Source of the DNA: Roseivirga ehrenbergii
GTDB lineage: Bacteria > Bacteroidota > Bacteroidia > Cytophagales > Cyclobacteriaceae
DNA length: 64,000 nt
Direction of reading: 5' to 3'
Assembly (NCBI RefSeq): GCF_001593005.1
Contig: NZ_LQZQ01000004.1
Coordinates: 124,001-188,000 of the forward strand
Of this stretch, positions 17,266 through 34,238 are shown one piece after another. A program made the position numbers and the translations under genes. How positions within the stretch are numbered: position 1 is the first letter of the stretch; every line of letters begins with the position of its first letter. Under the pieces are notes generated by a model. It had not been told where the DNA came from and made no database searches. It worked only from the letters and a program-made list of their open reading frames with translations.

Positions 17266-17278
17266 AACCTAGTTTTAG

Positions 17279-18789: not shown

Positions 18790-19334
18790 GATTTTGAAAA
18801 TTTCATTAAGATCAAGCAAAACACTGCGTAGTTGATCATGTCTTGATAATTGGCATCAATTCCTTCAGAAATGATGGTTTGCCCTTGGTTGTCTTCAATC
18901 TGCTTCACGCGGAGCAATTTCATCAGAATAATATCCGTCATAGAACTCACCCGCATGTCGCGCCAAGCTTCACCATAATCGTGATTTTTATTCATCAACA
19001 GATTAAAAGTGCTTTCTACTTTTTGGTCGTACAAAGGCTCAAGGGTTTCCACTTCCATTTCGAAGGGGTCATCTTCGCTCAACTCCATCTGGATCAACGC
19101 AATAATGCAGTAATTGATAATGCCAATAAACTCTCCAGCAATATCATCGTCAACCTTCTGATTTCCTTTATTCTGAATAGATTGAATGCGCTTGGCCTTG
19201 ATAAAAATCTGATCCGTAATAGAAGGCAGCCTGAGTATTCTCCATGCCGTTCCGTAATCTTTGGTCTTCTTCAGAAATATGTCTTTACAGGCCTCTATAA
19301 CTTGCTTATATTCGCCTACCGTTTGCTCCTTCAA
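18786..19334 (-). CDS. DUF1599 protein (duplicated DYGxAW domain)
   Basis: 182 residues made of two copies of one domain. DYGTAWR at 26-32 and DYGEAWR at 119-125 occupy equivalent places, each followed by a helix with a KxxR pattern (KAKRIQSI, KLLRVKQI) and a C-terminal INY(C/A) helix. This is DUF1599, suspected to act on nucleotides because related domains occur in phage nucleotide-modification loci; that is family lore, not shown here. The only start compatible with the conserved N-terminus is TTG. It is divergent from folP, and translation of the DoxX gene is coupled to its stop. Confidence 0.8.
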   Translation of the reverse strand: MKEQTVGEYKQVIEACKDIFLKKTKDYGTAWRILRLPSITDQIFIKAKRIQSIQNKGNQKVDDDIAGEFIGIINYCIIALIQMELSEDDPFEMEVETLEPLYDQKVESTFNLLMNKNHDYGEAWRDMRVSSMTDIILMKLLRVKQIEDNQGQTIISEGIDANYQDMINYAVFCLILMKFSKS

Positions 19335-19365
19335 GTTGAGTGATTTTAATTGCTAAAGGGAATTT

Positions 19366-20223
19366 TTGAAAGCGAAAGATAAAATATTTCAGGTTAAAAA
19401 GACATTGAACTTACGTGGAAATCTAGTTTCGCTCGATACGCCAGCGGTAATGGGTATTTTAAACATTACCCCCGATAGCTTTTATTCGCTTGGCAGACAA
19501 AACACTGAGAAAGAAATTCTATCAACAGCTGAAAATATGCTGGCAGAAGGCGCCCTCATTTTAGATATTGGTGGTTATTCTTCTCGCCCAAATGCCGAAG
19601 ATATAAGTACCGAAATTGAAACTGACCGAATCAGTAAAGCTCTAGCGCTTATAATTAAAGAATTTCCAGAAGCCTATATTTCTATCGATACATTTAGAAG
19701 TTCGGTAGCCAAGGTTGCAATCGACCAAGGCGCCTGCATTATCAACGATATTTCTGGCGGAACATTAGACACCAACATGTTTGAGACTGTTGCTAAATTG
19801 AATGTGCCCTACATTATGATGCACATGAGAGGAACACCTCAAAACATGGCTCAGCAAACCGACTATAAAAATTTATTAAAAGAGGTTATATTATTCTTCA
19901 GCGAAAGAGTAGAAAAACTTCGAATTTTGGGCGTAAACGACATTATTCTTGATCCTGGTTTTGGTTTTGCAAAAACCGCAAAACAGAGTTATGAGATTCT
20001 CCAAAATTTGGATTATTTTAAAGGATTGCGGTTACCTTTGCTCACTGGCTTATCCAGAAAATCTATGATTTATAAAACTCTAGGTATTTCGGCTGAAGAA
20101 GCACTCAATGGCACTACTGCCTTAAATATGGCTGCGCTTATAAATGGGGCTTCTATTCTTAGGGTACACGATGTGAAAGCCGCAGTAGAAACAGTTAAAT
20201 TATATAAAGCAATACATCCTTGA
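19366..20223 (+). CDS. folP: Dihydropteroate synthase
   Basis: Condenses p-aminobenzoate with dihydropterin pyrophosphate in folate synthesis. NITPDSF lies at 33-39, followed by GGYSSRP, SIDTFRSSVA, IINDISGG, MHMRGTPQ, DPGFGFAKT and GLSRKSMIYK, covering all family motifs. The start is TTG, since an in-frame stop lies 12 bases upstream and the first ATG falls inside the first strand. AAAGGG a few bases upstream may help initiation. The stop overlaps the cdaA start (TTGA), an arrangement found widely in Bacteroidota. Confidence 0.96.
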   Translation: MKAKDKIFQVKKTLNLRGNLVSLDTPAVMGILNITPDSFYSLGRQNTEKEILSTAENMLAEGALILDIGGYSSRPNAEDISTEIETDRISKALALIIKEFPEAYISIDTFRSSVAKVAIDQGACIINDISGGTLDTNMFETVAKLNVPYIMMHMRGTPQNMAQQTDYKNLLKEVILFFSERVEKLRILGVNDIILDPGFGFAKTAKQSYEILQNLDYFKGLRLPLLTGLSRKSMIYKTLGISAEEALNGTTALNMAALINGASILRVHDVKAAVETVKLYKAIHP

Positions 20224-21068
20224 TTTACGCTTTTAAAATAGGATTTCTAGAAGTACGATGGGTCGATATTATCGATATCCTGCTCGTAAGTGTATTGCTA
20301 TATCAGGTTTACAAGCTCTTAAAGGGAAGTGTTGCTGTAAGGGTGTTAGTTGGTTTTCTCTCGCTTTACCTTATTTATTTGGTAGTTAGGGCTGCTCAAA
20401 TGGAGTTACTGGCAGGTATTCTTGGTCAGTTTATGGGGGTTGGAGTTTTAGCCGCTATCATTATTTTCTCTCAAGAAATTAGAAAGTTCTTACTTATTCT
20501 AGGCAAAACTTCCTTCCGAAAAAATGGAGTGCTTGAATCACTACTGATTTGGCGGAAAAAGAAACCTAAAGTGAACATGAATCTTACCGCAGTAATTGAA
20601 GCCTCAAAGAGTTTATCAGGTTCAAATACGGGTGCTCTGATGGTATTTTCTAGAAACACCGAACTCAAATTTTATGCAGATTCTGGTGACCTACTCGATG
20701 CCTTTATTTCCAAAAGACTACTGATTTCTATCTTCAACAAATACAGCCCATTGCACGATGGTGCGGTAATTCTGTACGAAGGAAAAATAAAAGCGGCACG
20801 TTGTTTATTACCTGTTAGCGAAAGAGAAAACCTACCTGCGCAATACGGCTTACGACACAGAGCCGCATTGGGAATGTCTGAGGCCACCGACACCCTTATT
20901 CTCATTATTTCAGAAGAAACTGGGCAAATGTCGATTGCAAGAAATGGCAAAATAGATAGTAACCTTTCGGCCCCAGAAATCAGGAAAAAGCTGAATAGAT
21001 ACCTAAACGAGGAAGAAGAGGAAGCTACCGAAACCGACAAGAAAGAAAGCCTTGAAGTGGCCTCTTAA
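20220..21068 (+). CDS. cdaA: Diadenylate cyclase CdaA
   Basis: Makes cyclic di-AMP from two ATP at the inner membrane. Three N-terminal helices (VDIIDILLVSVLLYQVY, VRVLVGFLSLYLIYLVV, FMGVGVLAAIIIFSQEI) precede the DisA_N domain, with the catalytic DGA motif at 180-182 and RHR at 212-214. It has 282 residues and a Glu-rich tail. It begins with TTG, overlapping the folP stop by four bases, so translation is coupled. No c-di-AMP phosphodiesterase or riboswitch is visible here. Confidence 0.95.
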   Translation: MIYAFKIGFLEVRWVDIIDILLVSVLLYQVYKLLKGSVAVRVLVGFLSLYLIYLVVRAAQMELLAGILGQFMGVGVLAAIIIFSQEIRKFLLILGKTSFRKNGVLESLLIWRKKKPKVNMNLTAVIEASKSLSGSNTGALMVFSRNTELKFYADSGDLLDAFISKRLLISIFNKYSPLHDGAVILYEGKIKAARCLLPVSERENLPAQYGLRHRAALGMSEATDTLILIISEETGQMSIARNGKIDSNLSAPEIRKKLNRYLNEEEEEATETDKKESLEVAS

Positions 21069-21083
21069 TTAAAAAAACGCTTT

Positions 21084-22247
21084 CTAAAACTCTTTAAACT
21101 TCACCCAAAGCAACACCGGATTCTGAGAAGATTGTATTCCTTCAAGGGTTGATCCCTCAAGAAACTTATAGTTCTCGCTATTTAAAGTACTCAGCAATTG
21201 CGGTAAATCTTCTGGCAGAATACTAAATAACATTCTATCGTCCTCCCAAGTTAATGGAGACAATGAGAGTTGTTGATTACCTTCCCCTTTCAAATCGAAA
21301 ATCTCATAATTTCTTGTGCTTCTATTCAGTACAAACTGAGAATAATCGGCCAAAGAAGTATAATAAGTAAGGTAAATGAGTTTATCGTTTACAAAAGGGT
21401 TCATTGCCCAAACTTGACCATCTTCCCTAATTCGGCTCATCACGCTTGGGTCTTGCATTGCAATCCCCTCTCCGTTCCAAAACCAATTTTTACCAAAATC
21501 AATTTGAGCAATTGGCTTGCTCTTCTTGTCTTTCAAATAGAAAATAGTATCGTTCAATACAGAATGATATGTTAAATCCTCTTTATACGGTTTAAAGCTA
21601 TTTATCGACAAAAGTAGTGGCACCCTTAAAAGTCCAGTATTAGGGTTTGCCATCGCTTCTACATTAAACTCCTTATCCATAAAAAGCACATTGTAAAAAA
21701 GGCTGTCTTGATAAGGATAGTAGTTCATATTGGCTACATAACCATCATGGTATGGGAAAATATGTGTTGGATTGAAAGGGAGGTTGATACGATCAAGTTC
21801 TTCGCCTTGTATATTATAGCTTACCAAGCGCCTGTTAAAATAAATAGAGATAGAATCTGAATTTGTCCAAGAGCTTTGAATGAACATATACTCATTTAAA
21901 CTGCTGCCTTTATGGCTAAACGTACCCAAAAACTTGCCGTCTTTGGTATAGGAGAAAATTTCTCCTTTTCGGGCGGTAGCGAAATAGAGCTTATCATCCT
22001 CTCCCCTTTCAAATGACATTACATCACTCAACTTGGCTTCCTCGGTTTCTTCCAAAGCCAATATTTCCACATTATCAATTAAATCTGTAAACGCAGTTCG
22101 TTTGCTTTCAACATTGATAGAGTAAGCACGGAACTGATCTGCATCTACATCAACCGTTGTGGTACTTTGGGATTTGTTATCTGAACATGAAAAGACCAAC
22201 AGGCCAACTAAAACGAATGTTAATACTGCTTTTACCCTCGATTTCAT
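21084..22247 (-). CDS. Six-bladed beta-propeller lipoprotein, array copy 1
   Basis: 387 residues from the ATG that begins MKSRVKAVLTFVLVG; a GTG 7 codons upstream is open but spoils the signal peptide. Lipobox VFSC gives lipid-modified Cys21. The mature part starts DADQFRAYSINVES and matches its neighbours throughout: LALEETEEAKLS, YSYTKDGKFLGTFSHKG, DFGKNWFWN and the C-terminal SSQNPVLLWVKFKEF. This is the BF3222-like six-bladed propeller family of Bacteroidota; no ligand is known. It is the most 3' member of the array and convergent with cdaA. In this copy GPEEY is replaced by SLNEY. Confidence 0.8.
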   Translation of the reverse strand: MKSRVKAVLTFVLVGLLVFSCSDNKSQSTTTVDVDADQFRAYSINVESKRTAFTDLIDNVEILALEETEEAKLSDVMSFERGEDDKLYFATARKGEIFSYTKDGKFLGTFSHKGSSLNEYMFIQSSWTNSDSISIYFNRRLVSYNIQGEELDRINLPFNPTHIFPYHDGYVANMNYYPYQDSLFYNVLFMDKEFNVEAMANPNTGLLRVPLLLSINSFKPYKEDLTYHSVLNDTIFYLKDKKSKPIAQIDFGKNWFWNGEGIAMQDPSVMSRIREDGQVWAMNPFVNDKLIYLTYYTSLADYSQFVLNRSTRNYEIFDLKGEGNQQLSLSPLTWEDDRMLFSILPEDLPQLLSTLNSENYKFLEGSTLEGIQSSQNPVLLWVKFKEF

Positions 22248-22267
22248 TCTTAAATTCTTTGTAATCA

Positions 22268-23425
22268 CTAGTTAAAGTCTTTGAACTTCACCCACAATAA
22301 TACTGGGTTTTCTGAAGATTCTATACTTTCTAGCGTACTCCCTTTTTTGAAAGTGGCGTTTTCACTACCAATTTCCTTGATTAATTCGGCCAAATCGTAA
22401 GAATTGAAACTAGCAAGCAATACGTCTTCATCCCATTTAATAGGAACAAAAGCATAATTCTCCTCCACATTCTTTTTAGTATCTATTTGATAATAGTTTC
22501 CTGAATTTCTGTCAATCAACAGCCGAAACACCTCCGAGAAGCTCGTATTGAAATTCAAATAAATTTTCGAATTACCCACCTTAGAATAGAAAATCCATAC
22601 TTTTCCACTCTCCTGAATACTACCCATCGCCTTTTGCCCATCAGCCCTCATTTTTTCATCATTCCATAAATACTCCGATCCAAAATCAAGTTTAAGCAAT
22701 GGCTTGGTGGTTTTTTCTTGAATTAGAAAAACGGTATCACCAAAAATCTCTTTATACAGGAGGCCATCACCATAAGCCTCCAGACTGTTTACACTACTCA
22801 CGATAGGAAAAGGCACTACGTCTTTATATGGGTTCTCCATCCCCTCAATCTTCAACTGATCGTCATAGAAAACGATATTAAATTTAAGCGAATCGTTGAT
22901 CGGTATTCCACTCATATCACCTACATAACCATCCTGGTAAGGGTAGTAATGAGTAGGTTTAACATTTGGTTTTATCTGTCCCACATATTTCCCGTCAAAA
23001 TCATACTTATTTATTTTTCCTCGCTGGCCATCATGGATGAACAAAGTGTCTTTCTTTATCCAAAGGCTTTGCAAGCTTCCGTATTCTTCAGGCCCATCAC
23101 CTTTTCTATTGAAAGTGGAAATGAACTTTCCTTCATTAGAATAAATAAAAACATCACCCTCTGACCCGCTAGGAAAAATGATTCTGTTGTTTGCTTGAGA
23201 AAAATTATAGACCCCGCTTAAAAGTCCTTCATCCGTTTCTTCCAAACCCATTATTTCAATGGACTCAATCATTTCCGAGAGTTTTCGTTTCTCTGATTCT
23301 ATAGACAGAGAAATGACCTTAAACTCGTCATTGGTTTGATTTTTCTCTTCAGTAATACTCTCTTTTTGACTGCCACAGGCTGTAAACAATGCAGTAACTA
23401 ATAGCGCTGGAAAAACTCGTTTCAT
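22268..23425 (-). CDS. Six-bladed beta-propeller lipoprotein, array copy 2
   Basis: 385 residues. MKRVFPALLVTALFTAC gives lipid-modified Cys17. Blade-type repeats are visible as FIYSNEGKFISTFNRKGDGPEEYGSLQSLW, KYDFDGKYVGQI and YYPYQDGYVGDM. The C-terminus is GSTLESIESSENPVLLWVKFKD. It is closest to copies 1 and 3, sharing SSVNSLEAYGDGL and LLKLDFGSEYLWND. Its stop lies 20 bases before the copy 1 ATG, so the two are probably co-transcribed. Periplasmic or surface location is predicted. Confidence 0.8.
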   Translation of the reverse strand: MKRVFPALLVTALFTACGSQKESITEEKNQTNDEFKVISLSIESEKRKLSEMIESIEIMGLEETDEGLLSGVYNFSQANNRIIFPSGSEGDVFIYSNEGKFISTFNRKGDGPEEYGSLQSLWIKKDTLFIHDGQRGKINKYDFDGKYVGQIKPNVKPTHYYPYQDGYVGDMSGIPINDSLKFNIVFYDDQLKIEGMENPYKDVVPFPIVSSVNSLEAYGDGLLYKEIFGDTVFLIQEKTTKPLLKLDFGSEYLWNDEKMRADGQKAMGSIQESGKVWIFYSKVGNSKIYLNFNTSFSEVFRLLIDRNSGNYYQIDTKKNVEENYAFVPIKWDEDVLLASFNSYDLAELIKEIGSENATFKKGSTLESIESSENPVLLWVKFKDFN

Positions 23426-23438
23426 ATATTCTGATTTC

Positions 23439-24602
23439 TTATTTCAATTCTTTAAACTTTACCCACAATAATACCGGGTTTTCTGATGATTCTATTTCTT
23501 CTAAAGTAGTGCCTTGACGGAATTTGACCTTTTCTTCACCCAAGTCATTTATAAACGCTCGAACATCGGGAGATTGCAGACTAACCATAAACCTATCTTC
23601 TTCCCATTTAATAGGCGTCATCGCATACTTTGTTGCAGCACCTTTGTTCACTTTGACAGTCTTTTGAATTCCAGACATACGGTCTATCAGTACTTTAAAA
23701 ACATCTTTGAACGATGTTTTATAGCTCAAGTAAATCCACTTTTCATTTATGTAAGAATCGACCCACCAAACCAAGTCTGTTTCACGAATAAGACCAGTTG
23801 TTCTTGGGTTGTTTTTTATTGTTTCTTCTGTCCAAAGCCACTCCTCACCAAAATCAAATTTAAGCAGTGGCCGAACTTGATTCTTTTCAATAAGAAAAAC
23901 TGAATCGCTTTTAAACCCATGGTAAATGAGGTCTTTCCCATAAGGTTGAAAACTATTGACACTGCTACCTACATATAGAATCAGTGGTGATAAGTATGGA
24001 TTAGCCATTTGTTTGACTTCCATATTTTCATCGAGAAAAAGGACATTGAACTGTAATGAATCTTGAAAGGCTGTATAATCCAAATCGGCAACAAACCCTT
24101 TATCATATGTAAAAAAGCTCTTAGCTGAGAACGGGAGTTTCCAACTTCTCAAATGATTGCCCTCCAGGTCATATGAAAGTAATCTTCGTCTATTGATATC
24201 GGATACAAAAATGCGATCTCCATCCACCCAGAAACTCCAGATGAACTCATACTCTCCTGGGCCATTCCCTACATGGCTAAACTTACTAATGAACTCTCCT
24301 TCTTTGGAATAAGAATAAATACTGCCGTCATTTCCACTGGGAAAAATAATTCTATCCTCTGTGCTAGACACTTTAAATACACTGCTCAACAACGACTCAG
24401 CCGTCTCTTCCAATCGCATGACTTCAACTTCTTCAATCAATTCAAAAATTGAAACAGCTTTGGCCTCCGTATCGATTTTAAAAGTTTTGAACTCATCTGT
24501 CGCAACAGCCTGCTCTGTTTGCTTCTGTTCGTTACCTGAAGAGCAGGAGACCATCAGCCCCAGAAGCAACATTAGGATTCCAAATCTAAGCTTCATATTC
24601 AT
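23439..24602 (-). CDS. Six-bladed beta-propeller lipoprotein, array copy 3
   Basis: 387 residues. MNMKLRFGILMLLLGLMVSC gives Cys20. The start overlaps the copy 4 stop by ATGA, which fixes it and shows translational coupling. Conserved blocks include RLEETAESLLSSVFKV, SKFSHVGNGPGEYEFIWSFW, GSSVNSFQPYGKDLIYHG and the tail GTTLEEIESSENPVLLWVKF. It aligns end to end with copies 1 and 2. No catalytic motif is visible; the fold suggests ligand or protein binding. Confidence 0.8.
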   Translation of the reverse strand: MNMKLRFGILMLLLGLMVSCSSGNEQKQTEQAVATDEFKTFKIDTEAKAVSIFELIEEVEVMRLEETAESLLSSVFKVSSTEDRIIFPSGNDGSIYSYSKEGEFISKFSHVGNGPGEYEFIWSFWVDGDRIFVSDINRRRLLSYDLEGNHLRSWKLPFSAKSFFTYDKGFVADLDYTAFQDSLQFNVLFLDENMEVKQMANPYLSPLILYVGSSVNSFQPYGKDLIYHGFKSDSVFLIEKNQVRPLLKFDFGEEWLWTEETIKNNPRTTGLIRETDLVWWVDSYINEKWIYLSYKTSFKDVFKVLIDRMSGIQKTVKVNKGAATKYAMTPIKWEEDRFMVSLQSPDVRAFINDLGEEKVKFRQGTTLEEIESSENPVLLWVKFKELK

Positions 24603-25777
24603 TTGGTAAACTCTTTAAACTTCACCCACATCAACACTGGATTTTCAGAGGATTCAATTTTTTCTAAAGTAGTGCCCTCACGGTAATTGATTTGATTTTC
24701 ATCCAAGGCTGATAAAATGTTAGGTACATCGGCTGTGGTGACAGAGAACATCAGTCGATCTTTTTCCCAACCCAAGTATAAAAACTCTTCACTCACAGAT
24801 TTACCCTTCGGCATTTCCATTCGCTTGACCTTACCACTCATTCTGTCAATTAAGAAATACTCCCAATGCGAATAGCCGATCAAGGCATCTGCATAAATGT
24901 GTTTTTGACCAATCGCCATGCCTATTACCCAAGCTTTATTCTCGGCTTCTACTTTCTGCCAAACCTCAGAAGTAGGTTCAGGTCTGTCTGTCCAAAACCA
25001 ATCCTCCTTAAAATCAAAATGCACCAAAGGGGCGAGTTTATCATTTGTATATGCGTAAATGGTGTCACTAAAAACCCTGAAAAGCTGCACTCCATCTTGA
25101 TATGGAATCACAGTGGAGTAATTAGTAGGCCTCCACATTCCATTAGGTGCATCCTTATATTTCAGAAATGCTTTTTCCAGTTTCAAATCTTTGTCCAGCT
25201 TCGCGAACTTGTAATAAGAGGTGTCATTGATGGGGAGATAATTCATTTCAGCAACGTAGCCATCTTTATAAGGCCGAATATCTCCAACCCGAAGTTGATC
25301 AGGTAATTTACGTGAGTCGACAAACTCACCTTCAGTGGTGTGCCGATAAATCACCGATTTGGGCATTGAATACACAGCGACCAAACCGTTCTCCATCCAT
25401 AAACTTTCGATTGATCCATACTCTTCTGGCCCCTGTCCTTGACGGTTTATTTTATTCTTGAAATTTCCATTTTCGTCAAAAAAGTAGATTGTCGTATGTT
25501 CATTCGTCCCCATCTTTTTATCTGTATGAAAGACAAAGCCATCATCGAGCCTGTTGATTTTGCGGATTGTAGATAAAAGCGACTCATCGGTTTCTTCCAA
25601 TTGCATCAGCTCTACCGATTCAATCATATCTATAAAATTCTCTTTGGGCAAATCCAAATCGAGATGATATGATTTGAAATCATCTAAACCCGTGACCTGC
25701 TTGTCGTTAACGCCTCCCTTTTCAGCGCAGCTAAAAACAAGTGTAAGCATTAAAAAGCCGAATAATTTATTCTTCAT
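24599..25777 (-). CDS. Six-bladed beta-propeller lipoprotein, array copy 4
   Basis: 392 residues. MKNKLFGFLMLTLVFSCAEKGG gives Cys17. The first 22 residues are almost identical to those of the broken copy 6, which points to recent duplication. NRQGQGPEEYGSIESLW, YRHTTEGEFVDSRKLP, VIPYQDGVQLFRVFSDTIY and the tail GTTLEKIESSENPVLMWVKFKE are the family blocks. The copy 3 start overlaps its stop. The upstream spacer carries a 23-bp sequence repeated before another copy. Confidence 0.8.
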   Translation of the reverse strand: MKNKLFGFLMLTLVFSCAEKGGVNDKQVTGLDDFKSYHLDLDLPKENFIDMIESVELMQLEETDESLLSTIRKINRLDDGFVFHTDKKMGTNEHTTIYFFDENGNFKNKINRQGQGPEEYGSIESLWMENGLVAVYSMPKSVIYRHTTEGEFVDSRKLPDQLRVGDIRPYKDGYVAEMNYLPINDTSYYKFAKLDKDLKLEKAFLKYKDAPNGMWRPTNYSTVIPYQDGVQLFRVFSDTIYAYTNDKLAPLVHFDFKEDWFWTDRPEPTSEVWQKVEAENKAWVIGMAIGQKHIYADALIGYSHWEYFLIDRMSGKVKRMEMPKGKSVSEEFLYLGWEKDRLMFSVTTADVPNILSALDENQINYREGTTLEKIESSENPVLMWVKFKEFTK

Positions 25778-25781
25778 TTCT

Positions 25782-25804
25782 AAAATCTAGTTACTCAATA
25801 CTAT
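25782..25804. repeat. 23-bp spacer repeat, first occurrence
   Basis: This spacer segment, beginning AAAATCTAGTTAC and ending CAATACTAT, recurs exactly at 27044-27066 between later array members. A shortened variant stands at 28244-28259. It is probably a by-product of tandem duplication of the propeller genes. Confidence 0.7.
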
Positions 25805-25808
25805 CTAC

Positions 25809-26948
25809 TTACTCTTTAAACTTCACCCACATCAGTACAGGGTTTTCTGAAGATTCTATTTCTTCTAAGGTTGTGCCCCTTCTGAACTTTATTCGAGACT
25901 GATCCAACTCACTTATCAAAGTAATTAAGTCGTTGGACTGAATCGAGCCAAAAAAAGAATTGCCTTCCCATTTTATCGGAGAAATTGTATACCGCCCATC
26001 GCCTTGGTTCTGCAGGTCGATTGAAACGACTGCCCCAGTAAGCCTATTTATGAGAAAGGGTTGAGTATCTGTCATTATATAGGTGGCAGTTAGCCAAATA
26101 TGCTCCTCTCCAATGTACGAGTTAATATTATCCACCTTTTCGCCCTTGCTCGGCATATACATTTTAGGGTTCATTTTAGCCTCTTCAGTCCAATACCATT
26201 TCTCCCCAAAATCAAAATGAGCCAGTGGTCTGACTTGATTATTCTGGACCAGATACAACGAATCACTCATTACCCCTAAATAAGTAGCCCCATTACCATA
26301 GGGCTTTAATGAAGGAGAATTAGAGAAGTAATACATTTTTGGGAAAGCATTAAAGGGCAAAAGTGCTTTTCCCAACTTATATTCTGAATTGACCACTACT
26401 ACCCTATACTTGAGTGAATCTTCAATCACCCCATAATTCAAGTCATACACGAAACCATTTTTTATTGGGTAAACATGATGAGCGTAATAGGGAACTCTAA
26501 CTGAACTTATAAAATTACCGTTGAAATCATATCGTTTAATATGCTGACTTGCTTTAGAAAAAATGGCAATCGTATCTCCCTCAATCCAAAAATCATAAAT
26601 GTCAGCATACTCATCTGGCCCTGATCCTTTATGATTGAAACCATGCATAAAGTCACCCTCTTTATTAAAAAAAATGATTCCAACCTTTTCGCTGGCCATA
26701 ACGAAGCCATCGCTGTACTCTTGTAAACGACTTGCATAACCAAGCAGTGATTCTGGCGTTTCTTCAAGCCTCATTACTCCAAGGGTATCTATTAAGTCGG
26801 CCAGCTTAGTTTGAGACATATCCATGTCTATTTTATAAGATCGAAACTCATCTATGTCCAAACCAGATTTATCTAAGCTCTCTGACTTACCATCAGAACA
26901 GCTCCATACGACTATTAGAAGTAGTAAAACAGAAAAATATATTCTCAT
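25809..26948 (-). CDS. Six-bladed beta-propeller lipoprotein, array copy 5
   Basis: 379 residues from the ATG that begins MRIYFSVLLLLIVVWSC (Cys17). The frame is open 32 codons further upstream, but that stretch runs through a palindromic repeat and would bury the signal peptide, so I reject it. Family blocks: EETPESLLGYASRL, FNHKGSGPDEYADIYDFW, YPIKNGFVYDLNYG, HFDFGEKWYWTE and the tail GTTLEEIESSENPVLMWVKFKE. It is separated from copy 6 by a 136-bp spacer that holds two repeats. Confidence 0.8.
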   Translation of the reverse strand: MRIYFSVLLLLIVVWSCSDGKSESLDKSGLDIDEFRSYKIDMDMSQTKLADLIDTLGVMRLEETPESLLGYASRLQEYSDGFVMASEKVGIIFFNKEGDFMHGFNHKGSGPDEYADIYDFWIEGDTIAIFSKASQHIKRYDFNGNFISSVRVPYYAHHVYPIKNGFVYDLNYGVIEDSLKYRVVVVNSEYKLGKALLPFNAFPKMYYFSNSPSLKPYGNGATYLGVMSDSLYLVQNNQVRPLAHFDFGEKWYWTEEAKMNPKMYMPSKGEKVDNINSYIGEEHIWLTATYIMTDTQPFLINRLTGAVVSIDLQNQGDGRYTISPIKWEGNSFFGSIQSNDLITLISELDQSRIKFRRGTTLEEIESSENPVLMWVKFKE

Positions 26949-26973
26949 TGTCAATTGTATGTTTAGTAAACAA

Positions 26974-27016
26974 CCTTTTGGAGGGACTTTAAGGGTGAAG
27001 AAAACCCTCCAAAAGG
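26974..27016. repeat. Palindromic CCTCCAAAAG element, copy A
   Basis: CCTTTTGGAGGG and CCCTCCAAAAGG form a perfect 12-bp inverted repeat around a 19-base loop, in the spacer between two array genes. The same stem sequence recurs at 45940-46021 and 62477-62557 with longer loops. This copy is the shortest and has the arms in the opposite order. Confidence 0.65.
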
Positions 27017-27043
27017 CAGTATCCCATATTTTTCCATTTATCA

Positions 27044-27066
27044 AAAATCTAGTTACTCAATACTAT
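27044..27066. repeat. 23-bp spacer repeat, second occurrence
   Basis: Exact second copy of the segment at 25782-25804. The next bases (TACTATGTACTA) also match the spacer ahead of copy 7, showing that spacers were duplicated along with the genes. Confidence 0.7.
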
Positions 27067-27084
27067 GTACTAAATACCCTCTTA

Positions 27085-28239
27085 TCAATACTCCTCCTTA
27101 AACTTCACCCACATCAGCACTGGGTTTTCGGAAGATTCTATTTCTTCTAAAGTGGTGCCTTGGCGAAATTTGATTTGACTGTCTTCCAGTTCTGATAGAA
27201 AGGAAGCTATTTGCGTAGATTGAATTGAGAAAATCATGCTTTCTTTATCCCAGCCTTCGGCCTTTATGCTAAACGTATCCCCTTGCTTGCGAAAATCAAG
27301 ATTATGCGTTTCGTCTGTAGCTCTATTGATCAAAAAAATGGTGAGCTAGTTGTGCTTCCAAAACTCCCTAGTCCCATGACATAAATGTACTTTTCTCCCA
27401 TATACATGATGGCATCCCATATGCCATCATGATTTTGAAGCTCTTCAATATATTTAGCGCTAACTTCCCCCTTACCTCTCCAAAACCATTCTTTACCAAA
27501 ATCTAAATGAGCAATAGGCCCAAACTCCTGATCCTTTAAAAAATATATTGTATCACTTAGCATTCGAAAAAACAGCACCCCATTATTATAAGAAGAGACG
27601 GTCTGAAAGTTTTTGTAGATAGTGAAGGAAGGCGAAGTTTTATAAGGTAAATAGGTCGCTTCTACTTCTAAATTCTCATCTAAAAATGCATATCTAAACC
27701 TAGCAGAATCATCTATCAACTCATAGTTCATATCCATGGCATAACCATTTTCATAACCAAGAACATGACCAACCTGATATGGTAATTTTTTCGAATCAAT
27801 AAAGCTTCCGTCAATAGTATACCTGTTCACCTTGGTGTCAATTTTTGAATAAATTGATAGTGTGTCACCCACCAACCACATATCATCTATTCCAGTATAT
27901 TCTTCAGGCCCATTTCCTTTTCTATTTACTTTACTAACTAGGTTTCCTAGCCAAATCAAATACATAGACATTAGCCCCTCCTCCGCTCAAAAACACCAAA
28001 TAGTCATCAGTTTTTTTAAGGTTTGACACGTCAGACAAAAGTGAATTGTCCGTTTCTTCAAGTTTTACAATTTCGACCGATTCTACTAGGTTTGAAAAGC
28101 GCTCTTTGGGCTGATTTATATCCAAATGATAAGACCTGAATTCATCCAGATTGACAGCTTCCTTGTTGCTAGTACCTCCCTTTTCAGCGCAGCTAAAAAC
28201 AAGTGTAAGCGTCAAAAAACTGAATAATTTATTCTTCAT
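27085..28239 (-). pseudogene. Six-bladed beta-propeller lipoprotein, array copy 6, broken by two frameshifts
   Basis: Three consecutive reading frames together cover one family member. The first (start MKNKLFSFLTLTLVFSC, Cys17) runs to ...NVYVFDLAR and leaves frame at the T3 run at 27943-27945; removing one base restores NLVSKVNRKGNGPEEY exactly as in the paralogues. The second continues to ...GSTTSSPFF and leaves frame in a seven-base A/T run at 27332-27338; one extra base restores PFFLINRAT. The third carries the conserved tail GTTLEEIESSENPVLMWVKF. One insertion and one deletion keep the total a multiple of three (384 residues if repaired). As written, only a 101-residue product is made. 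Sequencing error is the alternative. Confidence 0.8.
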
Positions 28240-28266
28240 CTCTAAAATCTAAATACTATGTACTAC

Positions 28267-29427
28267 CTACTCCCTCTTAAACTTCACCCACATCAATACT
28301 GGGTTCTCTGAAGACTCAATTTCTTCTAAAGTAGTGCCTTGGCGGAATTTGATTTGGTCTTCGTTAAGTTCGGAGAGGAACGATCTCATATCTGGGGACT
28401 GTACAGTGAAAATTAAACGGTCATCGTCCCAATCCATAGCCACCGCTACCCCCTTAGGTTTATCCTTAGTGCGCATATCTACAGATCGAATTTGACCAGT
28501 AGCCCTGTCAATTAAATAGCTAGGAGGGGCTTTTTCTTGACTTACTCCCGAAAAGGTGTACACCCAAATCGCCTTAATACTAATTTGAGCATGAACGCTC
28601 CACAATTTATCGGTGGTTTGCATTGCGCCACCAAATGCTTGAAGCAAATCCCTACTTTCATTCCAGTACCAGTCTTGACCGAAATCGAAGTGAATAAATG
28701 GTGTAAACTGGTTATCACTCAACCTATAAACCGTGTCGCTCATCATTCTCAATAGCGTAACTCCATCTTTATACGGGCTAATCGGGTTCATACTTAAACT
28801 CATCCACATATCCATTTTATTGTCTACAGGTAGATACATTCCGCTTAGTTGCAGATCCTTACCCAGCGAGGCGTATCTATAATAAGATGTGTCGTTAATG
28901 GGACTGTAATTCATCTCCATAGCATAAGCCCCATTATACCCATGAACATGAGCACCCGCAACAGGTAAGGTGACAGTAGAAATAAAATCGCCTTCGAGAC
29001 TATAGCGTTTTACTGTCTTTTTACTGGAAGTGTAAACAGCCAAGGTATCTGACTCCATCCATATGTTGGAAACAGCCTGATACTCTTCTGGGCCATCGCC
29101 CTGTCTGTTGATCTTGTTCACAAATGCGCCATTCCTATCAAAAACAAACACATCGCTTTCCATTGTACTGCTGTTAAAAACTAAGTAATCCTTAGTTTGC
29201 TGAAGGTTTCGAACATAAGCCAACAAAGAATTATCCGTTTCTTCAAGCCTTACTACCTCCACTGATTCAATTAAATCGGCAAAACGTTCTTGGGGCTGGT
29301 CACCATCCAGACGGTAAGATTTAAAATCATCGGTAACGACTACGGCTTCAGTTTCTTCTTCAGAAGTGTTTTTTGAGCATGAAAATGTGACCAACAGTAG
29401 GAGAAAAAATAGGCTAAACTGCTTCAT
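28267..29427 (-). CDS. Six-bladed beta-propeller lipoprotein, array copy 7
   Basis: 386 residues. MKQFSLFFLLLLVTFSC gives Cys17, followed by a Glu/Thr-rich linker and VTDDFKSYRLDGDQPQERFADLIESVEVVRLEETDNSLLAYV. INRQGDGPEEYQAVSNIW, YSLEGDFIST, YRYASLGKDLQ and the tail GTTLEEIESSENPVLMWVKFK are the family blocks. It is most like copies 4 and 6. It is the first gene of the contiguous run; 391 bp of non-coding DNA lie upstream. Confidence 0.8.
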   Translation of the reverse strand: MKQFSLFFLLLLVTFSCSKNTSEEETEAVVVTDDFKSYRLDGDQPQERFADLIESVEVVRLEETDNSLLAYVRNLQQTKDYLVFNSSTMESDVFVFDRNGAFVNKINRQGDGPEEYQAVSNIWMESDTLAVYTSSKKTVKRYSLEGDFISTVTLPVAGAHVHGYNGAYAMEMNYSPINDTSYYRYASLGKDLQLSGMYLPVDNKMDMWMSLSMNPISPYKDGVTLLRMMSDTVYRLSDNQFTPFIHFDFGQDWYWNESRDLLQAFGGAMQTTDKLWSVHAQISIKAIWVYTFSGVSQEKAPPSYLIDRATGQIRSVDMRTKDKPKGVAVAMDWDDDRLIFTVQSPDMRSFLSELNEDQIKFRQGTTLEEIESSENPVLMWVKFKRE

Positions 29428-29818
29428 AGTTTTTTTGAGGTTGAAGGAAGTTTGAACTTGATAATTAGGTCAAGCATTCACTAACAAGAATAACTAAAAG
29501 AATAGTCGCTTCAAAAGAATAACAGATCAAATTTGATTTTGTGTATTCTATAGTTTTCAGATGGTATAAGATGAAAAATACCCCCAACTTCCCAAGGCGC
29601 ATTACTGCCAAATAGAGCCCTTTGTCATTTTATCGCAAGGCCTAAACCGGTGATTAAATCTCCTTTCGGCATGACATATATCAGGATTCGGCAACAGGGC
29701 ATTCGCTAACTTCATGACATGAAAGCAAAAGCATTTAAACTGCTGATCGTTGCGGATTGTGTCTGATAATCATCACGGGGATTGTGCTTTTATTCCAAAC
29801 CACCTAACTATTGAGATT
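29428..29818. other. Intergenic region, no gene seen
   Basis: Divergent spacer between copy 7 and the DUF2892 gene. It should carry both promoters, but I found no clear TAnnTTTG box. It holds a perfect 12-bp palindrome ATCAAATTTGAT at 29526-29537, possibly an operator. Only very short open frames occur. Confidence 0.4.
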
Positions 29819-30025
29819 ATGAAAAAGAACATGGGAAGTGCTGACAAAGCCGTAAGAATTTTAATCGCAGTGGCTATTGCGATACTTTATTTTGGCAACA
29901 TAGTAACGGGTACTTTGGGCATTGTATTATTGGTGTTGGCCGCAGTATTTCTTCTGACCAGCTTGGTGAGCTTTTGCCCACTTTATACGCTTGTGGGACT
30001 CAATACTTGTCCAGCAAAAAGATAG
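29819..30025 (+). CDS. Small DUF2892 (YgaP-like) membrane protein
   Basis: 68 residues from ATG at MKKNMGSADKAVRI. The start 23 codons further up lacks support, since the family begins with this MKxNMGxxDRxxR motif. Two hydrophobic helices (ILIAVAIAILYFGN and LGIVLLVLAAVFLLTSLVSFCPLYTLVGLNTC) end in the conserved CPLYxLxGxxTC with two Cys. In YgaP this part is the membrane anchor of a rhodanese; here it stands alone. It is the only gene in the array region on the opposite strand and splits copy 8 from the rest. Confidence 0.85.
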   Translation: MKKNMGSADKAVRILIAVAIAILYFGNIVTGTLGIVLLVLAAVFLLTSLVSFCPLYTLVGLNTCPAKR

Positions 30026-30031
30026 CATAAA

Positions 30032-30064
30032 AAGAGGCCATCAGATTGAATCCAATGGCCTCTT
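30032..30064. terminator. Terminator between DUF2892 gene and propeller copy 8
   Basis: Perfect 10-bp stem AAGAGGCCAT / ATGGCCTCTT with a 13-base loop between convergent genes. A-rich on the left, weak T-run on the right; it may serve both directions. Confidence 0.6.
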
Positions 30065-30086
30065 CACCAAAAAACATAAGAGATTT

Positions 30087-31259
30087 TCATTTTTTTGAAA
30101 AGTCTTTAATAAGGATGCGCACTAAAACTGGGTTTTCGGACGATGCTATTTCTTCCAAACTAGTCCCTCCTCGGAAAGACCAATTCTTTGAACTGGCTTC
30201 AGACACCAATCCAACAGCATCTAGTGCAGGAAGAAAGGCATAAAAAGTATCATCAGACTCCCAATGGCTCACTTGTAAATCGAAGGACTCCTTTTTTGAA
30301 GACCTTTCAAGGTCAATGAGAATGGCTTCAGCATTGCTTCTGTCAATCACATGTTGCAACCTTAAGTTGCCACTTCTTCCGTAAAGTGATGAGGTAATAA
30401 CATACCGTGAACCTATTTTAGGCTTAATCGACCAAACCTTCTCCCCTTCTCTTAATCCTTTGATTACATCCGGACCAAATGGGTCGTAATTATCCCAATG
30501 CCAATTGCTACCAAATTCGAAATGTATGAATGGAACGAATTTATCTTTCTGATACAGATAGACCGTATCGGAGTTTGCTCTATAGTAGCCAACTGATTTC
30601 TTATACTTAAACAGCGGACTTTGTGAAAGCATGGTGGCAATGGGAGCTTTCGTAAATGGTAAATACCTTCCTGCAATACCCAGATTTCCATCAAGCTTTA
30701 CCACTTTATATTTCGACTGATCTTCAAGACTACTGAAGTTCATATCGAGGAAGTAGTTTCCAGAAATACCCAAAGCATGCCCCGCAGTCAATTTCAGTTT
30801 ATTACTACTCGCGAAATCACCGTTGAGTCGATAGCGTTTGATGTCATTTAAAGAAGTATGGACAGCTATTAAATCGCCTTCTATCCAAATATCTTTGATT
30901 GAAGGATATTCTTCAGGAGCGTTTCCTTGTCGGTTGATTCGATTAATGAGTTTACCCTGATCACTAAAAACGAAAATATCGCCCTTATACTTATTGCCCA
31001 TAAAGACAAACTTATCTCCGACTACATGGACATCTCCAACACTTCCCAATAAAGACTCTGATGTTTCTTCTAATCGGATAAACTCGACTTCTTCAATGAG
31101 GTCAATGAGTTTGATTTTTCGGTCATTCTTGCTCAGGCCATAAGATACGAAGGAGTCCGAGACTTTTCCCTGCCCAATAACTTGAGCAGAGAAAAGGCAC
31201 ATGATGGCTAAGGTTTGTAGGCCTTGGATTAGCCTTCTTTGATCATAAATTTTCTGCAT
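30087..31259 (-). CDS. Six-bladed beta-propeller secreted protein, array copy 8 (divergent)
   Basis: 390 residues. Unlike the other seven it has no lipobox Cys; LQTLAIMCLFSAQVIGQG looks like a signal peptidase I sequence, so the product should be free in the periplasm or exported. It keeps RLEETSESLLGSVGDV, RINRQGNAPEEYPSIKDIW, YRLNGDFAS, HFEFGSNWHWDN and a diverged tail GTSLEEIASSENPVLVRILIKD. It is the most distant member and lies 64 bases after kbl on the same strand, so it may belong to the threonine-catabolism transcript. Confidence 0.8.
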   Translation of the reverse strand: MQKIYDQRRLIQGLQTLAIMCLFSAQVIGQGKVSDSFVSYGLSKNDRKIKLIDLIEEVEFIRLEETSESLLGSVGDVHVVGDKFVFMGNKYKGDIFVFSDQGKLINRINRQGNAPEEYPSIKDIWIEGDLIAVHTSLNDIKRYRLNGDFASSNKLKLTAGHALGISGNYFLDMNFSSLEDQSKYKVVKLDGNLGIAGRYLPFTKAPIATMLSQSPLFKYKKSVGYYRANSDTVYLYQKDKFVPFIHFEFGSNWHWDNYDPFGPDVIKGLREGEKVWSIKPKIGSRYVITSSLYGRSGNLRLQHVIDRSNAEAILIDLERSSKKESFDLQVSHWESDDTFYAFLPALDAVGLVSEASSKNWSFRGGTSLEEIASSENPVLVRILIKDFSKK

Positions 31260-31323
31260 ACACCAATATAATCTACAACAGACTATACTGCATATTCAAA
31301 TAGTGATGAACGGGCTGATTTTA

Positions 31324-32517
31324 TTAAATCACTCCTAAATCTTTACCCACTTCGGTAAAGGCTTGAATGGCTTTGTCTAAATGGTGCATTTCGTGCCCAG
31401 CAGAAACCTGAACTCTAATTCTGGCTTGGCCTTTCGCTACTACAGGGTAGAAGAAGCCAATCACGTAAATGCCTTTTTCAAGAAGCGCATCGGCCATTTT
31501 TTGAGCTAGTTTGGCATCGTAAAGCATTACAGGTACAATAGCGTGCTCGCCTGGCTTAATATCAAAACCAGCTTCGGTCATTTTACTTCTGAAGTACTTG
31601 GTGTTTTCCTCCAATTTATCGCGAAGAGTGGTAGCTTCAGAAAGCATATCGAATACCGCGATAGACGCACCTACAATAGAAGGTGCCAAAGTGTTTGAAA
31701 ATAAATAAGGTCTTGAACGCTGACGAAGAATTTCGATCACTTCTTTTTTACCAGAAGTAAAACCACCAGACGCACCACCAAGGGCTTTCCCCAAAGTACC
31801 AGTGATAATATCTACACGGTCCATGCAGTTTCTGAATTCGTGTACTCCTCTGCCAGTTTTACCCATAAACCCTGTTGAATGACATTCGTCTGTCATCACT
31901 AAAGCTTTGTATTTATCAGCCAAATCGCAGATTTTATCCAACTGTGCAATCGTGCCGTCCATTGAGAAAACACCATCGGTTACAATAATCTTATTCTTCG
32001 CTCCCTTAGCATCTGCATCTTTTAATTGCTGCTCTAAGCTTTCCATATCGTTATGGTCGTAACGGAAACGCATGGCTTTACACAAACGCACACCATCAAT
32101 AATTGAAGCATGGTTTAGCCCATCTGAAATAATCGCGTCTTCGGCACCCAATAACGGTTCAAAAACACCACCATTAGCATCGAAGGCTGCGGCATAAAGA
32201 ATGGTATCTTCCATGCCCAAAAATTCTGAAATCTTTTGCTCCAGCTCCTTGTGAATATCTTGTGTTCCACAAATAAAACGAACCGAAGACATACCGAAAC
32301 CATGCGTATCGATCGCCTTTTTTGCGGCTTCAACCACCTTAGGGTGTGAAGACAACCCTAAATAGTTATTCGCACAAAAGTTGATTACTTCTCTTCCATC
32401 GGCAGTTTTGATATCGGCCGCTTGGGGAGTGGTAATGATTCTTTCTTTTTTATAAAGTCCGGCTTCTTTGATTTCTGCTAGTTCAGCCTGAAGTTTGGGT
32501 TGGAGTGTATCGAACAT
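31324..32517 (-). CDS. kbl: 2-amino-3-ketobutyrate CoA ligase (glycine C-acetyltransferase)
   Basis: PLP enzyme that cleaves 2-amino-3-ketobutyrate with CoA to glycine and acetyl-CoA, the second step of threonine breakdown. It has [14 protein letters not shown], the aspartate motif DECHSTGF at 210-217 and PLP Lys244 in [13 protein letters not shown]. 397 residues match Kbl. The first step (tdh) is encoded nearby on the other strand. A small conserved gene ends two bases upstream of its ATG, so both share the promoter of that gene. Other alpha-oxoamine synthases (BioF-like) are less likely given the context. Confidence 0.95.
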
Positions 32518-32519
32518 AA

Positions 32520-32783
32520 TTAATTTGTTTTCGGTTTGGGCCTCATCATCACTTTAGGGCGGGCTTGCGCTGTTGGCGTTGCCTTTTCCTGCACTTCTTC
32601 TTTTAATGGAAATGCTCTCCTAATTGGGTTAATGAGAAATAATTTTTGAGCTGTAAAGCTATTAGGGTGCATTTGGTCGTATAAAACTTTGAATTTAGAC
32701 CACTGTTCGGGCTGCCCTTTTTTAAAAGCATCCGAGTCAATTTTCTTGTCTTTTAAATAAGATTCAAAGTCCTTGATTTCCAT
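32520..32783 (-). CDS. Small conserved hypothetical protein upstream of kbl
   Basis: 87 residues. [20 protein letters not shown], then [27 protein letters not shown], then a Pro/Lys/Ala-rich basic tail. No signal peptide, membrane helix or known catalytic motif. I do not recognise a named domain. A consensus -7 box ends 7 bases before the ATG, so the mRNA is probably leaderless and continues into kbl. The conserved-looking central helix and firm promoter argue it is a real gene. Confidence 0.75.
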
Positions 32784-32790
32784 CGCAATG

Positions 32791-32798
32791 CAAATATA
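32791..32798 (-). promoter_or_regulatory. -7 box of the hypothetical-kbl operon
   Basis: TATATTTG (minus strand) fits TAnnTTTG perfectly and stands 7 bases from the ATG, predicting a leaderless transcript. Confidence 0.6.
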
Positions 32799-33005
32799 AA
32801 AAATATGGGTTCCGAACGACTATTCGTATTGGCAAAGGTTTTACTTATTCTATTCCATTCGCTAATATTGCAGCGCAATTCGGTCAGGGGTTTCATGGAG
32901 TCTAGCTCTTAATAACCTAATACCGTTCAGAAACTTTCTATTCCCAAAGCAGAAAAAGAAGAATAGATTTCTGATTCAACGATTACAACTAAAACTAAGA
33001 AGCAA

Positions 33006-33956
33006 ATGACTAGAGTACTTATCATCGGAGCGAGTGGACAATTAGGATCGGAACTGACTATTGCGCTCGGTGAGGTTTTTGGAAACGAAAACATCATTGC
33101 TTCTGATATTTCTTCACCACACGCCAACATTGCTGGTTTCACTTTCGAAAAACTAGATGTAATGAATGCGGCTCAGTTGAAGGAAGTTGTTGAAAAGCAT
33201 TCGATCACACAGATATATCATTTGGCGGCCATCCTTTCTGCCAAAGGCGAATCTAATCCTCAGTGGGCTTGGAACTTGAACATGACCAGCTTATTGAATG
33301 TGTTGGAATTGGCCAAAGAGAAAAAGCTAGACAAAATTTACTGGCCAAGTTCTATTGCCGTTTTCGGGCCGAACACGCCTTTGGACAATACGCCTCAGTT
33401 CTGTGAAAAAGACCCCAACACCGTATATGGCATCAGCAAATTAGCTGGTGAAAGATGGTGCGAATACTACTTCGATAAATACGGAGTGGATGTTAGAAGC
33501 ATCAGGTACCCAGGCCTTATCGGTTACAAATCATTACCGGGTGGTGGCACAACAGATTACGCTGTAGATATTTACCACAAAGCATTGAAAGGCGAGAAAT
33601 TCACCTGCTTCTTAAAAGAAGACACGGCCTTGCCAATGATGTATATGTCTGATGCGATTAAGGCAACCATCGACCTGATGCAGGCACCTGCAGAACAAGT
33701 GAAAGTACGTTCTAGCTACAACCTTTCGGCCATTAGCTTTACACCAAAAGAAATGGCTGCTTCTATTCAAAAGCAAATGCCTGAATTCGAAATTGATTAT
33801 GCGCCAGATTTCCGTCAGGCCATAGCCGATAGCTGGCCAAACACGATTGATGATTCTCAAGCCAGAGAAGATTGGGGTTGGAAACACGATTTCAGCCTTG
33901 ATGCCATGACGGAAGACATTCTTAAAAACCTTCCTCCACTTTTGGATAAGTTTTAG
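33006..33956 (+). CDS. tdh: L-threonine 3-dehydrogenase, epimerase/SDR type
   Basis: 316 residues with an extended short-chain dehydrogenase fold. NAD-binding GASGQLG at 8-14, HLAAILSAKGE near 72-82, SSIAVFGP near 115-122 and the catalytic pair Y141/K145 in YGISKLAGERW. YPGLIGYKSLPGGGTTDYAVDIY matches the bacterial epimerase-like threonine dehydrogenases described from Flavobacterium and Cytophaga. It oxidises threonine to 2-amino-3-ketobutyrate, the substrate of the divergent kbl product. No consensus promoter is evident; TAGATTTC at 32964-32971 is a weak candidate. A generic sugar epimerase is the alternative, made unlikely by the neighbour. Confidence 0.9.
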   Translation: MTRVLIIGASGQLGSELTIALGEVFGNENIIASDISSPHANIAGFTFEKLDVMNAAQLKEVVEKHSITQIYHLAAILSAKGESNPQWAWNLNMTSLLNVLELAKEKKLDKIYWPSSIAVFGPNTPLDNTPQFCEKDPNTVYGISKLAGERWCEYYFDKYGVDVRSIRYPGLIGYKSLPGGGTTDYAVDIYHKALKGEKFTCFLKEDTALPMMYMSDAIKATIDLMQAPAEQVKVRSSYNLSAISFTPKEMAASIQKQMPEFEIDYAPDFRQAIADSWPNTIDDSQAREDWGWKHDFSLDAMTEDILKNLPPLLDKF

Positions 33957-34013
33957 GGTTAGTTATTAGTGTATTGGTTGATTAGTTATTGGTCATTAGT
34001 CACCATTGTAACA

Positions 34014-34098
34014 CTGTCGCAGGCTCTCCGATTTACCTGCCCTTAGGCAGGACCTATGACTCCCCATAGACACAAGGAATCCGTCCGCCTGAAAAAGC
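34014..34098 (+). repeat. Intergenic repeat starting CTGTCGCAGG, copy 1
   Basis: CTGTCGCAGGCTCTCC is followed after insertions by GACACAAGGAATCCGTCCG and a GAAAAAG tail. It aligns with the copy at 35752-35816 in the same orientation. This copy carries an extra small hairpin (CCTGCC / GGCAGG). The preceding bases consist of TTAGTTATTRGT-like short repeats. No coding potential. Confidence 0.6.
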
Positions 34099-34238
34099 CA
34101 AGCCATAGATCCCACTTAACCATAAGAAGGAGTTCCCAAAACATCCTTTTTCCCAATTATTAAAAAAATCACTCCAACACCGAAGGTTTTTTTCTTAGAT
34201 GCCATCTAATCATTCGTACAAACAAAAATTGACGAAAC

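Follow-up and report, generated by a model that had tools for sequence, protein, structure and literature searches.

Six-bladed beta-propellers of the DUF5128 group are common in Bacteroidota. Their described relatives are the Pfam families DUF5128 (PF17170) and DUF4934 (PF16288), the solved protein 4raa (Bacteroides fragilis BF0058) and DUF4221 (3s9j). In this study, we analysed an array of eight genes of this group that lies in a 64,000-nucleotide stretch of Roseivirga ehrenbergii DNA (contig NZ_LQZQ01000004.1, positions 124,001 to 188,000; the window, whose own numbering is used below). The array belongs to a known protein family and is not a new kind. It is alike to these relatives in family and fold but differs from them in being tandem, recombining and free of peptide genes.

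The closest described arrangements are the NVEALA peptide-propeller cassettes of Bacteroidales (Phocaeicola plasmid records) and the Cys-rich pairs of other Cyclobacteriaceae, which likewise contain tandem propellers of the same superfamily with variable bodies. In NVEALA-type cassettes most propellers are preceded by a precursor peptide, whereas none was found in the array: its propellers are of the DUF5128/TolB_like group, as in the cassettes, and no precursor stands directly upstream of them. Other Bacteroidota propeller lipoproteins are BtuG and XusB, which two reports describe as seven-bladed surface propellers beside TonB-dependent transporters (PMC10404256, PMC13142918). Ligand binding has been shown for BtuG and XusB and is presumed for the array, whose copies are six-bladed (in a model of copy E), have no transporter among ten neighbouring genes and mostly lack a surface-export signal. 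The SusC/SusD pair of polysaccharide utilisation loci is not present among these ten genes either. Acquired interbacterial defence (orphan immunity) clusters are arrays of immunity genes without toxins that undergo turnover and horizontal exchange. The array resembles them in its turnover and exchange; for its propellers, a role in toxin immunity would be hypothetical. Our literature search, which left subscription journals and preprints mostly outside, returned no paper naming NVEALA, DUF5128, DUF4934, DUF4221 or PF17170, none pairing Roseivirga with a beta-propeller, and no function for 6-bladed propellers of the DUF5128 group. The matches for PF14055 concern other subjects, to go by their titles mostly malaria parasite genes.

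We report, with high confidence in the anatomy and evolution deduced from the genomes, that the array occupies one site between kbl and cdaA and that its content changes from species to species. Tentatively, and at slightly less than an even chance, we read it as a turnover-prone stock of periplasm-facing binding proteins that is kin to the propeller half of the peptide-propeller cassettes.

Results

Eight homologous genes lie on the minus strand at 21084-31259, between a kbl-like aminotransferase gene on the right (31324..32517, minus strand; Pfam Aminotran_1_2, gene name assigned from sequence) and a convergent cdaA diadenylate cyclase gene on the left (20220..21068, plus strand; Pfam). In order of transcription they are H, G, F, E, D, C, B and A. 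All eight proteins given to Pfam matched DUF5128, '6-bladed beta-propeller', at 72-121 bits against a gathering cut-off of 22.9, with copy F scored through its 213-residue piece. The six other intact copies are 28-41% identical to copy G, far above chance. In the whole genome DUF5128 was matched 19 times, with two of these matches falling on pieces of F. Copy H (30087..31259) encodes a propeller with a plain signal peptide and no lipobox, as seen in the sequence and in Pfam; its orthologue in Roseivirga echinicomitans is e0, and none lies between the same neighbours in Roseivirga seohaensis. The other seven copies are propeller lipoprotein genes with a lipobox cysteine. The count of seven lipobox cysteines and one non-lipid signal peptide made in the first-pass annotation was confirmed by eye.

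H and G are separated by 659 nucleotides containing a YgaP-like_TM (DUF2892-type) gene on the opposite strand (29750..30025, plus; Pfam), which also occurs in loci L050 and L051. Because this gene parts H from G, the probable operon is G-F-E-D-C-B-A, as judged from gene order. Copy G (28267..29427) would be its first gene, and its allele has diverged from those of both close species. It is followed by copy F (27085..28239), an F-E spacer of 136 nucleotides with a hairpin at 26975-27016 (26949..27084), copy E (25809..26948), copy D (24599..25777), copy C (23439..24602), copy B (22268..23425) and copy A (21084..22268), the last gene of the probable operon; all, including the spacer, are on the minus strand. 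The most likely start of E is 26948, and a longer open reading frame (ORF) extends into the F-E spacer. D and C overlap by 4 nucleotides and B and A by 1 nucleotide as called, although the start of A may be later; at least two pairs with coupled or near-coupled translation had been proposed, and these are such pairs. Three further spacers in the array measure 13-31 nucleotides. The signal peptide of D is common to F, e4 and e5.

Copy F carries two frameshifts, one near 27948 and one in a run of T at 27332-27338, which leave pieces of 101, 213 and 82 residues. The description of eight full-length paralogues in one direction therefore holds for eight homologous minus-strand genes, of which seven are intact. 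An intact orthologue of F was found in R. echinicomitans, and F may be an old pseudogene or an assembly error. Relative to this orthologue, F also shows an additional in-frame 12-nucleotide difference at a direct repeat. The hairpin (up to 3 mismatches) occurs at 5 places in 2 of 19 Roseivirga genomes, every one of them inside an array; a genome-wide repeat was ruled out, since no site was found outside arrays in the 19 genomes.

These 19 genomes, one per species, were compared at the kbl-cdaA site, which holds 0 to 9 propeller copies. The site is empty in five of them (G001, G003, G011, G013 and G017), where kbl and cdaA abut or overlap by a few bases. It holds one copy in G004, together with a 621-residue gene product, two in G007, two in G018 with resistance-nodulation-division (RND) genes in between, three in G009 (the third weak, 64 bits), four in G010, six in G002, eight in the window and nine each in the sister genomes of R. 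seohaensis (G005) and R. echinicomitans (G014). At least four copies are present in G012 and at least six in G015, both interrupted by contig breaks and with RND genes inside. G008 has one copy by cdaA with kbl located elsewhere, and G006 and G016 have neither a kbl-cdaA junction nor a copy there. G008 (84% complete) and G017 (80% complete) are incomplete, and absences in them carry less weight. The copies share the reading direction of kbl wherever both stand on one stretch, and the presence of the array switches at least five times on a five-gene tree. In a protein tree restricted to copies above 200 bits and 330 residues (the third G009 copy, at 64 bits, and a G015 match of 22 bits were not included), deep paralogue lineages were resolved, some common to the three close species and others expanded in a single lineage. 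A further tandem run of propellers was seen in a congener (L057, G015:C455); several of its members have no lipobox, and one seems to be divided between two ORFs.

Order differs among the close species as well. The window reads H G F (broken) E D C B A, R. seohaensis reads G s2 E D C s6 s7 B A, and R. echinicomitans reads H G F E e4 D e6 B A. Copy number and order, which it had been proposed to compare across strains, were here compared across species, and both vary. Segment by segment, orthologous bodies are 78-100% identical and paralogues 13-58%, with exceptions at G (49-65% between the window and both species, 68-83% between s1 and e1) and at A against e8 (68-82%). Copies wC and s5 (w, s and e denoting the window, R. 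seohaensis and R. echinicomitans) have bodies 91-95% identical and an N-terminus only 21% identical; for wD and s4 the values are 85-90% and 45%. Conversely, s4 and s5 are identical over the first 60 of 60 nucleotides and have the upstream spacer in common, while their bodies are 22-35% alike, and the junctions s3>4 and s4>5 align over 290 nucleotides at 88.6%. Signal-peptide and spacer modules are thus, by these alignments, swapped between unrelated bodies. Together with copy numbers of 0-9 and content that differs between close species, this bears out the first-pass view of the cluster as a variable module.

Exchange is also indicated by synonymous divergence (dS). The background consisted of neighbouring genes that passed identity and coverage limits, 36 for R. 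seohaensis and 16 for R. echinicomitans, with median dS of 0.23 (0.07-0.52) and 1.20 (0.35 to saturated), respectively. Against R. echinicomitans the bodies of D (0.16), E (0.19) and F (0.08) lie under every one of the 16 background genes, while H is at 0.44, B at 0.78 and A saturated. The genes on the kbl side are the lowest of this background (0.35 and 0.49), so the low dS of D, E and F may partly reflect one larger exchanged tract. Against R. seohaensis A is at 0.17, and C (0.39), D (0.49) and E (0.27) lie inside the background range, with B (0.75) above all 36 background genes. Copy G is saturated against both species and, in the R. seohaensis comparison, is above all 36 genes. On these values, copies are exchanged (D, E, F) or replaced (G, B) between species.

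The first-pass annotation had proposed diversifying pressure. Positive selection was rejected, since the ratio dN/dS (omega) exceeded 1 in no unsaturated orthologue body; the values were 0.06-0.21, and 0.22 for s3/e3, against background medians of 0.033-0.038. A single N-terminal value exceeded 1 (1.13, wF/e2), from about 30 codons of a broken copy. All ten unsaturated body comparisons are nevertheless above the background median, and this, the broken copy F and the empty site in 5 of 19 genomes would be expected if the array were a recombination-prone tandem set of redundant copies in near-neutral birth and death, under weak selection and with no copy-specific specificity. We consider this unlikely, because orthologue bodies are under purifying selection and three species keep deep paralogue lineages. 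On this comparison, exchange accounts for the turnover of the array, and every lineage remains under constraint.

A structural model of copy E gave a confident propeller (predicted local distance difference test, pLDDT, 87.7; predicted template modelling score, pTM, 0.84). Its 24 strands fall in order into six blades of four, and strands from the N- and C-terminus close the ring; the blades were assigned by hand from the DSSP string alone. The last of them is completed by the N-terminal strand together with the conserved ENPVL..KF terminus. The best fold matches were 4raa (Z 28.7 over 331 residues) and 3s9j of DUF4221 (Z 15.6 over 288), followed by general propellers at Z of 12.9 or less. The most conserved strands sit in the closing blade (entropy 1.24 and 1.66 bits), and the most variable parts are several loops of blades 2-5. 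Replacements between orthologues showed no clear class. For most pairs, gene conversion was ruled out as the only reason why the C-terminus is conserved: the proportion of synonymous differences (pS) there was 0.45-1.0 in 21 of 21 window pairs. As synonymous sites at the C-terminus are mostly diverged, constraint explains much of its conservation. The pair s1/s2 of R. seohaensis (C-terminal pS 0.14) is an exception.

At least two acidic residues within six after the lipid cysteine were taken as a surface-export signal; one report treats this pattern as a sign of surface lipoproteins (PMC12578637), and the signal was defined in orders of Bacteroidota other than that of the host. Only proteins with a lipobox cysteine were counted (57 of 64 propeller rows, 17 of 30 SusD loci). 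Some of the cysteines picked automatically (own_C3, G002_4, L126) may be wrong. Among window copies the signal was present in one of seven (E only), compared with 16 of 17 SusD-like lipoproteins of Roseivirga. It was found in 15 of 57 Roseivirga propellers and in 5 of 24 array copies of the three close species (p = 3e-6 versus SusD). Since the signal is mostly missing, most copies of the array are more likely to face the periplasm, to judge from their N-termini.

The array had first been called a surface or periplasmic binding module, and the surface half of that description fares poorly. Surface lipoproteins that capture ligands in the manner of BtuG and XusB, or surface antigens varied by phage, glycan or self-recognition pressure, would fit the turnover and interspecies exchange, and one Parabacteroides propeller comes after a SusC/SusD pair. 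Bacteroides propeller lipoproteins do capture ligands at the surface, according to the two reports on them (PMC10404256, PMC13142918). Surface capture was nevertheless rejected as the leading reading on the export signal; there is also no TonB-dependent transporter among the ten neighbouring genes, and omega is well under 1. We regard a surface role as quite improbable. No evidence was found for phage, glycans or self-recognition as the pressure, and PADLOC returned no match for any of seven proteins at E 0.1. Among phage records (query D), 1 of 50,697 matched, an unannotated 4.2-kb fecal contig; among plasmid records (query G), 10 of 72,556 matched, all from Phocaeicola or Parabacteroides, and several look like chromosome fragments.

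A link to secreted peptides emerged from other Bacteroidota. In two other Cyclobacteriaceae genomes (loci L153 and L157), propellers alternate with proteins of 90-125 residues that share one conserved leader and have a hypervariable Cys-rich end; the label NVEALA-like for these peptides is a judgement by eye. Seven of their eight precursors are followed by a propeller (one TolB_like), and the eighth lies at the stretch edge. By locus, a propeller is the next gene after 5 of 6 precursors in L153 (the sixth being at the edge), 2 of 2 in L157, 1 of 1 in L203, 8 of 9 in L212 and 0 of 1 in L211, or 16 of 19 over all five loci. A Pfam-recognised NVEALA precursor lies upstream of a DUF5128 propeller in Phocaeicola, where also eight of nine tandem NVEALA-like precursors are followed by a propeller (DUF5128, TolB_like or, once, recognised by our own profile only) and the ninth by DUF1573. 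The gene after an NVEALA gene on a B. fragilis plasmid is a weak TolB_like match under the cut-off. In a Parabacteroides locus, a TIGR04149 precursor of a ribosomally synthesised and post-translationally modified peptide and radical-SAM genes are accompanied by three propellers and a peptidase ABC exporter. The peptides of about 100 residues in L153 and L157 could be assigned to neither a Pfam nor an NCBIfam family; at E 10 there was a single match, at chance level.

The second link is to an RND exporter. In the same R. ehrenbergii genome, a lone DUF5128 propeller and a 148-residue lipoprotein stand between a HlyD-type adaptor and an AcrB-family permease (RND1, C1:288677-291793), and a second permease (RND2) comes after the adaptor. 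Across the 19 genomes, RND1 and propellers are both present in 15 and both absent in 4, with no genome holding either alone; the four without RND1 (G001, G003, G011, G017) are the four without a strong DUF5128 match (two have none and two have one weak match each). RND2 is present in 14 of 19 genomes and is missing in the same four and in the incomplete G008. The presence of RND1 changes four times on the tree, although part of the pattern is also compatible with a single loss and a single regain. In 60 genomes of the family, where RND1 was the sole permease sought, 20 have both, 4 RND1 only, 1 propellers only and 35 neither (p = 4.8e-11, uncorrected for kinship). Among the matches listed outside the genus, DUF5128 lies near 5, 7 and 10 of 24 RND1 homologues within 2, 5 and 10 kb, against 0.16, 0.27 and 0.45 of 24 expected. 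A propeller profile matched within 1.5 kb at 7 of 26 RND1 loci (own and same-genus loci included), two of them weakly.

This linkage raises the alternative that the propellers are periplasmic substrate-binding or assembly subunits of the two-permease pump, with an array that widens its substrate range and no peptides involved. Co-occurrence and linkage with RND1, and within the genus with RND2, favour it, as do the DUF5128 or DUF4221 genes found a few kb from the pump genes in 14 of 15 RND1-bearing Roseivirga genomes and a complete pump in Parabacteroides (membrane fusion protein, RND permease and outer-membrane factor) with a propeller as the gene directly after it. We nonetheless think it improbable: the exception among the 15, G010, shows no recognised propeller near its pump, array and pump lie on different contigs in R. 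ehrenbergii, and the part of the proteins of the L212 peptide-propeller stretch that was scanned included no recognised pump.

No SusC/SusD, CAZyme, regulator or TonB-dependent transporter was found among the ten neighbouring genes scanned (15727-21068 and 29750-35651), in agreement with the initial remark that no SusC/D, enzyme or regulator accompanies the array. The neighbourhood also contains a two-stretch DUF1599 'nucleotide modification associated' protein (18786-19334, minus strand), which lies beside folP and cdaA in the genus, a CotH kinase-type protein (34239-35651, plus strand) and a FadL/OMPP1-type outer-membrane transport protein (15727-17265, plus strand), which lies some 3.8 kb away from the array end. 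In three other propeller or peptide-propeller clusters, an O-antigen-ligase-like (Wzy_C) protein with TPR repeats is a third recurring partner (L152:9024-10949, L153:7805-9670 and, weakly, L212:22664-24130), and in Parabacteroides (L210:731-8101) a TPR protein with a propeller directly after it occurs twice, around a BlaI/M56 sensor pair.

Discussion

The evolution of the array is well supported, and we infer its function from related loci. A fixed chromosomal site between kbl and cdaA carries a changeable stock of 6-bladed propeller lipoproteins, probably facing the periplasm at the outer membrane. This stock changes by gain and loss of whole genes, by exchange of bodies across species, probably through homologous recombination, and at the junctions of 3' end, spacer and signal peptide, which are alike in many inner copies and would act as shared homology. 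The evolutionary steps are seen in the comparison of species, and the recombination pathway at the junctions is what the aligned sequences suggest. Each body retains the conserved closing blade, formed by the first strand and the ENPVL..KF end, and varies elsewhere.

The array may provide a changeable repertoire for binding or protection. Because same-superfamily propellers follow precursors gene by gene in other Bacteroidota, the propellers could bind small molecules, either exported or incoming, with variable secreted peptides as the likeliest ligands; this peptide-partner function, drawn by analogy, is plausible but still rather doubtful. They would act beside the two-permease RND/HlyD exporter, being kept and lost with it, and the Roseivirga array would represent the propeller half without peptide genes, an orphan binding or protection set. 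A stronger form of this idea, in which the propellers are cognate binders (immunity proteins or receptors) of hypervariable secreted peptides, the array is an orphan repertoire against the peptides of neighbours and the RND pump expels the catch as an adaptive periplasmic defence, seems rather unlikely to us.

Several results weigh against our main reading of the array. Neither the array spacers nor the Roseivirga stretches read, which are a small part of each genome, yielded a precursor peptide; the precursor motif scan of these stretches did not recover the Cyclobacteriaceae type in its control loci (0 in L153, 0 in L157), and a PF14055 search of the whole R. ehrenbergii genome was empty. 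Among seven Bacteroidales propeller loci that were annotated, four stand beside no peptide and no exporter. As for the exporter, among the matches listed, no DUF5128 lies within 2 kb of 19 of the 24 RND1 homologues from outside the genus, and of the five homologues that are linked, two are distant (33 and 37% identity). Ten RND1-neighbour proteins, one of them from the same genus, gave no named propeller in Pfam (nine no family, one an RND piece), and the family includes the four genomes with RND1 only and the one with propellers only. The RND link is a correlation and could reflect a shared lifestyle. Structure prediction and mapping of variable positions on the propeller face, suggested at the outset, confirmed the propeller and gave no significant difference in variability between top and bottom loops when all were counted (p = 0.118); the value of 0.0016 obtained after omitting two loops picked post hoc is not counted as a test.

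The genomes of the genus, which carry 0 to 9 copies at the kbl-cdaA site, form a natural series suited to testing function, exchange and specificity. For the DUF5128-group propellers of Bacteroidota, our results propose two candidate partners, variable secreted peptides and a two-permease RND exporter. If it is true that the propellers protect against secreted peptides, they would constitute a new kind of variable envelope defence.

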